Shown: one piece after another, positions 31,549-34,023 of the stretch
Position numbering within the stretch: the stretch's first letter is position 1
How the letters are laid out: each line of letters starts with the position of its first letter
From: Bacteroidota bacterium
GTDB taxonomy: Bacteria; Bacteroidota; Bacteroidia; Bacteroidales; FEN-979
Length of the DNA stretch: 34,023 bases
NCBI GenBank assembly: GCA_030706225.1
Contig: JAUZOW010000006.1
Span: 1 to 34,023 of the forward strand
Reading direction: 5' to 3'
Notes under the pieces: model-generated
What the model saw: the letters and a program-made list of their open reading frames with translations, nothing else
Told to the model about the DNA's origin: nothing
The model's database searches: none
Made by a program: the position numbers and the translations under genes

Positions 31549-32688
31549 TTGGCCGGTATATACATTCATATTCCGTTTTGCAGAAGAAAGTGCTTCTATT
31601 GCAATTTCTTCTCGGTAGCTTCTACACAGTACCGGAAATCTTTTCTGGAAGGGCTGGCAAAAGAAATCCACCATAGGAGGGATTACCTGGAAGGGCAAAC
31701 GGTTTCCTCTATCTATCTGGGTGGAGGTACTCCCTCCCTTCTGGAAACCGAAGAAATTGGGGAAATTTTAAATACTATCCGGAACGAATTTATAATCGAT
31801 GCTGAAGCCGAGATTACTATTGAAGTGAACCCGGATGATGTGAAACCCGGATTGTTTGATTCATATAATAAATTGAATATCAACCGGATTAGTATCGGTA
31901 TCCAATCCTTTTTCCCTGAAGATCTCACCTATCTGAACCGGATTCATTCGGCAGAGCAGGCATATCAATCTGTCAAAGAGGCCTTTGCAGCTCAATTCCA
32001 AAACATAAGCATCGACCTGATCTATGGGATTCCAGGGTTGGGTGACCATAACTGGGAAATGAACCTTGAAAAGGCTTTTGAGCTGAACGTGCCGCATGTA
32101 TCAGCTTATGCACTTACTGTAGAACCCAAAACCCCATTAGATCTGCTTATCCGCAAAGGAACATTACCGCCGCCGGAGGAAGAAGATATGATCAGTCAGT
32201 TTAAAATTTTGATGGAACAGATGCGGGCACACGGATATGATCATTACGAAATATCAAATTTCGGTAAAAAAGGATTTTACTCACGGCACAACAGTATGTA
32301 CTGGACAGGAGGATATTATCTTGGTCTCGGGCCTTCTGCTCATTCCTATAACGGAAAATCACGCCAGTGGAATGCAGCAGGAATTGAAAAATACCTGGAT
32401 CAGATTCGCAACGAAGAAAATTGCCTGGAAATAGAAGTGCTTACCCCGGGTCAGAAATACGACGAATACGTAATGGTCTCATTAAGAACTCAATGGGGTT
32501 GTGATCTTGAAAAGATCCGGAATGATTTTGGACCCGGCCGGGAAGCTTACTGCCTGGGAAGAGCCGAAAAACATATCGATTCAGGGGATATTGAAAAAAG
32601 AGGTTCCATCCTCTTTCTTACCGGTCATGGGAAATTATTTGCCGATGCCATTGCTTCCGATCTGTTTACCGACAACGACGCTTTTTAA
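31549..32688 (+). CDS. hemW: radical SAM heme chaperone HemW (coproporphyrinogen oxidase-like)
   Basis: Radical SAM protein of the HemN/HemW family, 379 residues. The cluster motif begins very early: IYIHIPFCRRKCFYCNF with Cys11, Cys15 and Cys18 (CxxxCxxC). The SAM-binding GGGTPSLL and the downstream LTYLNRIHSAEQAYQSV block follow. HemW is thought to deliver heme; HemN makes protoporphyrinogen. The absence of an N-terminal extension and of the fourth nearby cysteine (residue after YC is Asn, then Phe) fits HemW better. The start is TTG at 31549, giving the canonical N-terminus, 7 bases after the kinase gene. Confidence 0.92.
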   Translation: MAGIYIHIPFCRRKCFYCNFFSVASTQYRKSFLEGLAKEIHHRRDYLEGQTVSSIYLGGGTPSLLETEEIGEILNTIRNEFIIDAEAEITIEVNPDDVKPGLFDSYNKLNINRISIGIQSFFPEDLTYLNRIHSAEQAYQSVKEAFAAQFQNISIDLIYGIPGLGDHNWEMNLEKAFELNVPHVSAYALTVEPKTPLDLLIRKGTLPPPEEEDMISQFKILMEQMRAHGYDHYEISNFGKKGFYSRHNSMYWTGGYYLGLGPSAHSYNGKSRQWNAAGIEKYLDQIRNEENCLEIEVLTPGQKYDEYVMVSLRTQWGCDLEKIRNDFGPGREAYCLGRAEKHIDSGDIEKRGSILFLTGHGKLFADAIASDLFTDNDAF

Positions 32689-33596
32689 TTTTCAGCTTTC
32701 CCTCTCAGAAAAGTTCCCAGAGGAAGTTTTCTTTTGCCACGATCGGTAAAGAAAAGTTCTCCAGATTCGATTTGCCCGATATTACGGAAAGATACATTTA
32801 CCAGGTTTTCAGCAATAAGTGAGGAGAAACCCATAGAATAAAGGCTAAAAAGGACAAAACCGCCGGGTTCCAACAGTTGACTGCAGTTATCCATCATTTC
32901 CTGGATCGCATCCTGAAGGACCCATTTTTCACCATCCGGCCCTCTTCCGTAAGCAGGCGGGTCAAGGATAATTCCATGATAATGATTTCCCCGTTTGGCT
33001 TCCCTCCTGACAAATTTCAGTGCATCTTCCACAACCCAGTGGATATCTTTCAATCCGGAAGCTTCCATGTTTTCCCGGGCCCAGGTGATCACCGGTCTTA
33101 CGGAATCCACGTGAATCACTTCAGCACCTGCAGCTGATGCAGCAAGGGAAGCGCCTCCGGTATAAGCAAAAAGGTTAAGGACTCGAAATCCTTTCTTTAT
33201 AGGGTTTTCCTGAATTAAATCGAAGATATAATCCCAGTTGGGGGCCTGTTCAGGAAAAATCCCGATATGCCCGAATGATGTGAGACCAAGACGGAATTTC
33301 AAATGCATTTTATTATACCGGTAATCCAGGTACCATTGATCCGGCATACCTCTTTTCTTTTTCCATTCTCCTTTTTCCTGGGCATCAGGACGGTTGGTTT
33401 CTATACCTTTCATCCGGATGTATTTTGCAGAATAAAGCTTTTCCCATTCGCTTTCCGGCAAAGATTTTTTCCAGACAGCTTGTGGTTCAGGACGGCAAAG
33501 AATATGCTTTCCAAACCGCTCGAGCTTTTCCGATCCTCCAGAATCGATCAGCTCATAATCCTGCCAGTTCGATGAAGATGATAGTTGTATGTTCAC
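32685..33596 (-). CDS. class I SAM-dependent methyltransferase (COG1092, RlmI-like without PUA)
   Basis: Probable RNA cytosine-C5-type methyltransferase of 303 residues. The SAM-binding motif I is VLNLFAYTGGASLAASAAGA, with EVIHVDSV following. The catalytic-type motif is ILDPPAYGRGPDG. The N-terminal half (IRMKGIETNRPDA, WYLDYRYNKMHLKFRLG) forms the central domain seen in the RlmI family, but the usual N-terminal PUA domain is absent. Target position is unknown. It converges on hemW and the two stop codons overlap (32685-32688). Confidence 0.88.
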   Translation of the reverse strand: MNIQLSSSSNWQDYELIDSGGSEKLERFGKHILCRPEPQAVWKKSLPESEWEKLYSAKYIRMKGIETNRPDAQEKGEWKKKRGMPDQWYLDYRYNKMHLKFRLGLTSFGHIGIFPEQAPNWDYIFDLIQENPIKKGFRVLNLFAYTGGASLAASAAGAEVIHVDSVRPVITWARENMEASGLKDIHWVVEDALKFVRREAKRGNHYHGIILDPPAYGRGPDGEKWVLQDAIQEMMDNCSQLLEPGGFVLFSLYSMGFSSLIAENLVNVSFRNIGQIESGELFFTDRGKRKLPLGTFLRGKAEN

Positions 33597-33998
33597 AAGT
33601 AAAGATTTGTTTTTCTGTCACGACAGGTCATTTATTCTCTCTTTCCATGGCTTTCCGATCCCATAAAGATACAACTGTCCTGAGAAATTCCGCTTTTTCT
33701 TTATATAGCTGATTCCGTATATATCGTATGCTCACTAAATTCATGTGACAGATGAAAAAGCATTTGGAATATTTACTATGAAAGCTGAAAGCCCGAAAAA
33801 GGTTCCCAGAACCATTACGGCAGGTGTTTTCCATCGATCCGGAGGGATCAGCCAGCGGATGAATCTGTTCATATCACAAAGTGAAGAACAAAATATCAAT
33901 CATTTTCTAATCAAGCTTAAGAAATAATTTTTACAGGTGTTTAATAAAGATAATTCTTTTATTTTTACCTCAAATTCTATTCTATTGCCCCAATTATC
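33597..33998. other. mostly non-coding stretch
   Basis: About 400 bases upstream of the methyltransferase gene. Apart from the NrfH-like anchor fragment (33741-33872, minus strand), I found no convincing gene. A 68-codon minus-strand frame (33834-33628) and a 60-codon plus-strand frame (33745-33927) have no family resemblance. The part from about 33890 to 33970 is AT-rich, as expected for a promoter region, with a near-match to the -7 box (TATTTTTA at 33960-33967). No tRNA or CxxCH-encoding sequence was seen. Confidence 0.6.
33741..33872 (-). pseudogene. truncated NrfH-like membrane anchor (43 codons)
   Basis: Hand translation from the ATG at 33872 gives 43 residues then TGA. The pattern FIRWLIPPDRWKTPAV, VLGTFFGLSAFIV and NIPNAFSS matches the N-terminal anchor of NrfH, the NapC/NirT-type tetraheme small subunit of cytochrome c nitrite reductase. 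That anchor has the form L-x-P-P-x-x-W-(K/R)-x-P-x-V, LG-x-F-x-GL and x-NA-x-S-Y-L-S. In NrfH the first CxxCH heme motif follows within about 15 residues; here the frame stops and no CxxCH can be read in any minus-strand frame down to 33597. A gene remnant is the simplest reading; a functional one-helix microprotein is possible but less likely. Confidence 0.55.
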
Positions 33999-34023
33999 AT
34001 GACCAAACTGATCACCAGTCTTC
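33999..34023 (+). CDS. possible start of a gene cut by the window edge
   Basis: An ATG at 33999 opens a frame (MTKLITSL) that runs to the right edge. It follows an AT-rich stretch with a near-match to the Bacteroidota -7 box about 32 bases upstream. Only eight codons are visible, so no product can be named. Confidence 0.3.

Follow-up and report, generated by a model that had tools for sequence, protein, structure and literature searches.

Intact nrfHA loci in the family and the locus of the window

The closest described systems are NrfH (TIGR03153; PF03264, Cytochrom_NNT), NrfA (PF02335, Cytochrom_C552; NCBIfam NF008339 / TIGR03152), and the nrfH-nrfA-methyltransferase-hemW locus of relatives in the same family (for example, L081, L068, and L087). 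In all 16 intact loci, NrfH carries four CxxCH motifs and NrfA four CxxCH and one CxxCK. The NrfH and NrfA of L081 (E 3.1e-49 against TIGR03153 and 3.3e-173 against PF02335, respectively) are true members of their families. The locus described here lies near the end of contig C198, which at 34,023 bp is the whole stretch of DNA analyzed (the window) and belongs to a 2.66-Mb genome of 241 contigs and 99.18% completeness. It has the same neighbors as the relatives' locus, in the same order and on the same strands, but it misses ~1.9–2.0 kb of nrfHA as well as the Rrf2/Fe-S/DUF438/DUF2249 block where relatives have one. Its likeness to NrfH comprises anchor residues 1–41 (37–55% identical to same-family NrfH), whereas the heme-binding domain and all four CxxCH motifs are missing; its likeness to NrfA comprises the last ~34 residues (up to 64% identical), whereas the catalytic domain and all five heme sites are missing and the remnant lies out of frame with the anchor. 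Both ends of the operon lie in order at the ancestral site, and the interior is gone.

Because intact nrfHA is syntenic in relatives, the NrfA tail is retained, and the genome holds no intact copy of its own, the locus is very probably the scar left by deletion of an nrfHA operon, both ends of which can still be read. The original prediction, made from the anchor, had named the loss of an ancestral nrfHA by deletion among its options, and this option is borne out by the synteny in 17 of 18 genomes, the retained tail, and the lack of an intact copy.

This synteny was established at the family level, since a same-genus search returned the genome of the window alone. NrfA was searched in 81 genomes including the window's own, 42 of them being of the same family, and full-length NrfA (E below 1e-160) was present in 18 of these 42. 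A stretch around the best methyltransferase match was taken in 40 of the 42 same-family genomes, the other two having no match. Among the 18 genomes bearing NrfA, nrfA adjoins the methyltransferase in 17, with hemW convergent beyond the methyltransferase where the match and the stretch extend; in the eighteenth (G033), NrfA is on another contig. nrfH stands beside nrfA in 16 of the 17 loci, the exception (L098) starting at a contig end near nrfA. In the window, the two neighbors are a class I SAM-dependent RNA methyltransferase (Methyltrans_SAM, PF10672; 32685..33596, minus strand), which follows nrfA in relatives, and a hemW-like radical SAM protein (31549..32688, plus strand; name taken from the original prediction), the convergent neighbor with conserved synteny. 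A comparison of related loci had been proposed along with that prediction, and nrfHA does stand beside the methyltransferase and hemW in relatives. From NrfH residue 41 to NrfA profile position 469, the 16 intact loci measure 1,863–2,012 bp, and this stretch is absent at the scar. Both profiles were also run over the 23 same-family loci where no nrfHA adjoins the methyltransferase, in search of similar scars, and yielded noise only (best E 2.3 for NrfH and 1.3 for NrfA), with L104 and L105, which hold only a methyltransferase fragment or paralogue, and L071, L079, L092, and L096, which are split or truncated at contig ends, being weak tests.

Remnants of nrfH and nrfA

The nrfH remnant (33741..33872, minus strand) is an ORF of 43 residues with its ATG at 33872 and its stop at 33741, situated 151 bp from the contig end; an in-frame TTG upstream of the ATG extends it to 52 amino acids. 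As originally described, it contains LIPPDRWKTP, VLGTFFGLSAFI, and NIPNAFSS, and it reads as NrfH anchor codons 1–41 followed by V, T, and the stop. Against a profile of 16 NrfH proteins from same-family genomes, it was found among 1,116 six-frame ORFs at E 1.4e-11, with residues 1–41 aligned to profile positions 1–41; a variant of the anchor on contig C63 of the same genome gave E 1.7e-13, and the third-ranked ORF, which is unrelated, gave E 0.089. The NrfH-type identity that had been proposed for the anchor thus holds. The profile match covers the N-terminal single-helix anchor feature with its PP..W and YIS.A.S boundary, and the best relative is L029 (the NrfH of G038; 55% over 38 residues). 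A search of NCBIfam and Pfam with the 43-mer alone returned no family at E ≤10; the family-specific profile was needed to detect it, general libraries being blind to the 43-mer by itself. A search of phage records with 33600–34023 gave no match, so a phage origin is without support.

The anchor had been claimed to end exactly where the first CxxCH would begin, with no heme motif downstream. That it is cut before the heme-binding part is confirmed, but the exact position is not: in an intact NrfH (L081), the first CxxCH starts at about residue 49, and the match of the anchor ends at residue 41, ~8 residues earlier. The lack of heme motifs was likewise upheld, as no CxxC[HK] occurs in the six frames of 33501–34023; in the six-frame motif scan, the CxxCK catalytic heme site and the four CxxCH of NrfA are also absent at the scar.

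The original prediction missed the second half of the locus, in that the C-terminal tail of NrfA lies directly downstream of the anchor, on the same strand and in another frame. This nrfA remnant (33628..33732, to 33762 at its widest, minus strand) holds the last ~34 NrfA codons and the stop, which is all that the NrfA profile finds of an intact adjacent partner. The tail matches positions 469–497 of 504 in the NrfA profile of relatives (E 1.5e-5), positions 415–440 of 441 in the NCBIfam model TIGR03152 (E 0.0048), and the NrfA of L031 with 64% identity over 28 residues (E 2e-10). With the NrfA profile, the C63 variant of the tail gave E 0.0068, and the next ORF of other origin gave E 2.5. Taken alone, this short match is of only moderate strength, the NCBIfam match (E 0.0048) lying far under the whole-protein cut-off of the model. 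Between the two remnants, the frame changes at a junction placed approximately at 33733..33749 (minus strand), where TGTCACATGAAT gives CHMN when read in the frame of the tail; this is only suggestive of a remainder of the first heme site of NrfH (CHVMN). The stop of the nrfA remnant is ~30 bp before the methyltransferase start.

A second variant of the scar and the search for an intact copy

The upstream leader (33873..34023) runs to the contig end and is overlapped by C63 (L003; 5,574 bp), the end of which matches the window end with 96% identity over 385 bp (window 33638–34023 against C63 5190–5574), the overlap having an identical stretch at each outer end. From the overlap, C63 leads into a divergent SpoU/TrmH-type methyltransferase gene, and only 126 bp separate this gene from the nrfH remnant (C63 coordinates 5214 and 5341). 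Upstream of the scar variant, C63 also holds what we take to be an RluA-type gene, a relative of which is at the equivalent place in L069. The simplest reading is that C198 and C63 are one locus at which the assembly was broken by a strain difference; the upstream side of the scar accordingly rests on the C63 overlap and synteny and not on one continuous sequence.

The rest of the genome was searched for an intact nrfHA, as had been proposed earlier, and none was found. PF03264, which does recognize the NrfH of a relative (50 bits), had no match in the genome, and PF02335 had one weak match on C90 (E 4.7e-4). The C90 protein was rejected as a surviving NrfA: it is multiheme, its best Pfam match is Cytochrome_C7, and no CxxCK was seen on reading it. 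Its PF02335 score was 26.8 bits with neighbors and 22.8 as a single ORF, the cut-off being 24.1. Searches of the genome for members of the upstream block found in relatives returned, for qNOR, only a 39% identical protein on a separate contig (C30 1398–3593; L186) and, for Rrf2, only a 26% partial match. The search for DUF438-hemerythrin gave no match and had no positive control, and this empty answer shows little.

Block upstream of nrfHA in relatives

Many same-family genomes carry a block that separates the TrmH-type gene from nrfH (or from the methyltransferase) and that is absent at the window locus. Its members are an Rrf2 regulator, a 4Fe-4S protein, a DUF438-hemerythrin-PAS protein, DUF2249, sometimes a nitric oxide reductase (NorB type), and presumably a cupin. 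The block was seen in L066–L070, L080, L081, and others, and it resembles an island for nitrosative stress that has repeatedly been lost in part. Among the named loci (the best 80 of 256), NrfH or NrfA occurred in none of the 80 fetched stretches. In 14 of these 80, which carry no nrf sequence, the TrmH-type gene and the methyltransferase stand head to head, and the matches span ~0.9 kb as measured from the distal end of the TrmH-type match to where the methyltransferase starts. Either the family acquired the block by insertion and it was lost again here, or the lineage of the window never gained it; nrfHA itself was once present in this lineage.

Decay of the remnants and alternative explanations

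Over 386 bp, 13 SNPs and one 1-bp indel distinguish the variants on the window and on C63. In C63, the start codon of the anchor is changed from ATG to ATA, and the indel breaks the frame of the NrfA tail. Six SNPs lie within the anchor, and each of the five codons that they affect either encodes another residue or is no longer a start. Where the helix ends, C63 has YIS, as intact relatives do, and the window copy has NIP. Taken with the start and tail differences, both copies therefore look derived, each in a different way. Nothing in the comparison points to a coding constraint on the remnant, which with two variants is a small sample and would be consistent with drift.

These differences bear on the idea, raised originally as the alternative to a deletion, that the NrfH anchor is still made as a single-helix membrane peptide with a new role. 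The window copy does retain an ATG, and its 43 codons form an uninterrupted frame that encodes a hydrophobic helix. Against this stand the ATA of C63, the five of five differing anchor codons that are non-synonymous or lose the start, and the 23 related loci without nrfHA in which no similar remnant was detected, and we consider a retained peptide most improbable. Equally improbable is that one strain variant expresses the anchor fragment as a small membrane peptide, or the frame of CHMN and the NrfA tail as a chimeric peptide; if true, the expressed peptide would capture a new small gene just as it arises from the deletion of an operon. Because C63 has lost the start codon, its tail carries an indel, and all changed anchor codons are non-synonymous or start losses, the locus is read as a decaying scar and not as a working anchor peptide. 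The same point changes in the remnants fit decay and so speak against an assembly artefact, whereby reads from an intact nrfHA would have been lost or wrongly joined and no scar would be present in the cells. Such an artefact might be suspected from the position at a contig end, the fragmentation of the genome into 241 contigs, and the overlap of two variants, but the same fusion is found in two different variants on two contigs, and elsewhere in this 99% complete genome neither NrfH nor a genuine NrfA is matched; an artefact is thus very unlikely.

An explanation compatible with the scar is that the 5′ part of the remnant has been kept as a leader or promoter for the downstream methyltransferase. 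As the methyltransferase lies on the same strand, ~30 bp past the stop of the nrfA remnant, transcripts from the old nrfH promoter would run into it. However, the 13 SNPs and the indel in the overlap reveal little constraint, and a leader is not needed in general, since the 14 head-to-head loci among the best 80 of 256 do without nrf sequence. We regard this role as unlikely, albeit less so than the peptides and the artefact.

For the deletion scar, we propose that nrfH codon ~41 was joined out of frame to about nrfA codon 469 by a single deletion or by a few, and that the upstream block, which in many relatives extends from the TrmH-type gene to nrfH, was also lost or never gained. The remnant would now be untranslated, or translated without use, and drifting, and the cell would be unable to reduce nitrite to ammonia by NrfHA. 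As a single case, this is ordinary gene loss and decay that is unusually legible, and it shows how a metabolic loss can be traced from a small unannotated ORF. The lineage would once have had nitrite ammonification that later disappeared; in relatives, the operon persists at the equivalent chromosomal site. Judged by titles, the papers that literature searches turned up, one of them on N2O reducers, gave no matching account of an nrfA pseudogene or of nrfHA loss in Bacteroidetes/Bacteroidales.

Patchy distribution of nrfHA in the family

A methyltransferase tree was built for the window together with 35 loci of the family and 20 of the 80 named ones; family loci in which the methyltransferase is fragmentary were dropped. 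The window falls within the family, in a clade of 35 rows supported at 95/86, although some branches are weak and the branch of the window is long (0.62), with its exact neighbor weakly supported. Lineages with and without nrfHA surround the window, and nrfHA is patchy; the well-supported (starred) branches require the nrf label to change at least seven times. Such a patchy locus could serve the study of repeated gain and loss of nitrite reduction.

Two minor observations were made among relatives. In two same-order genomes, the NrfA matches (L013 and L027) contain one internal stop, which may reflect a decaying nrfA or effects at the edge of the match. Two relatives that lack nrfHA have a small ORF near the methyltransferase, at the place where nrfHA would be (L066 6675–7241, minus strand; L069 3542–4003, plus strand), which resembles an IS200/IS605-type Y1 transposase.
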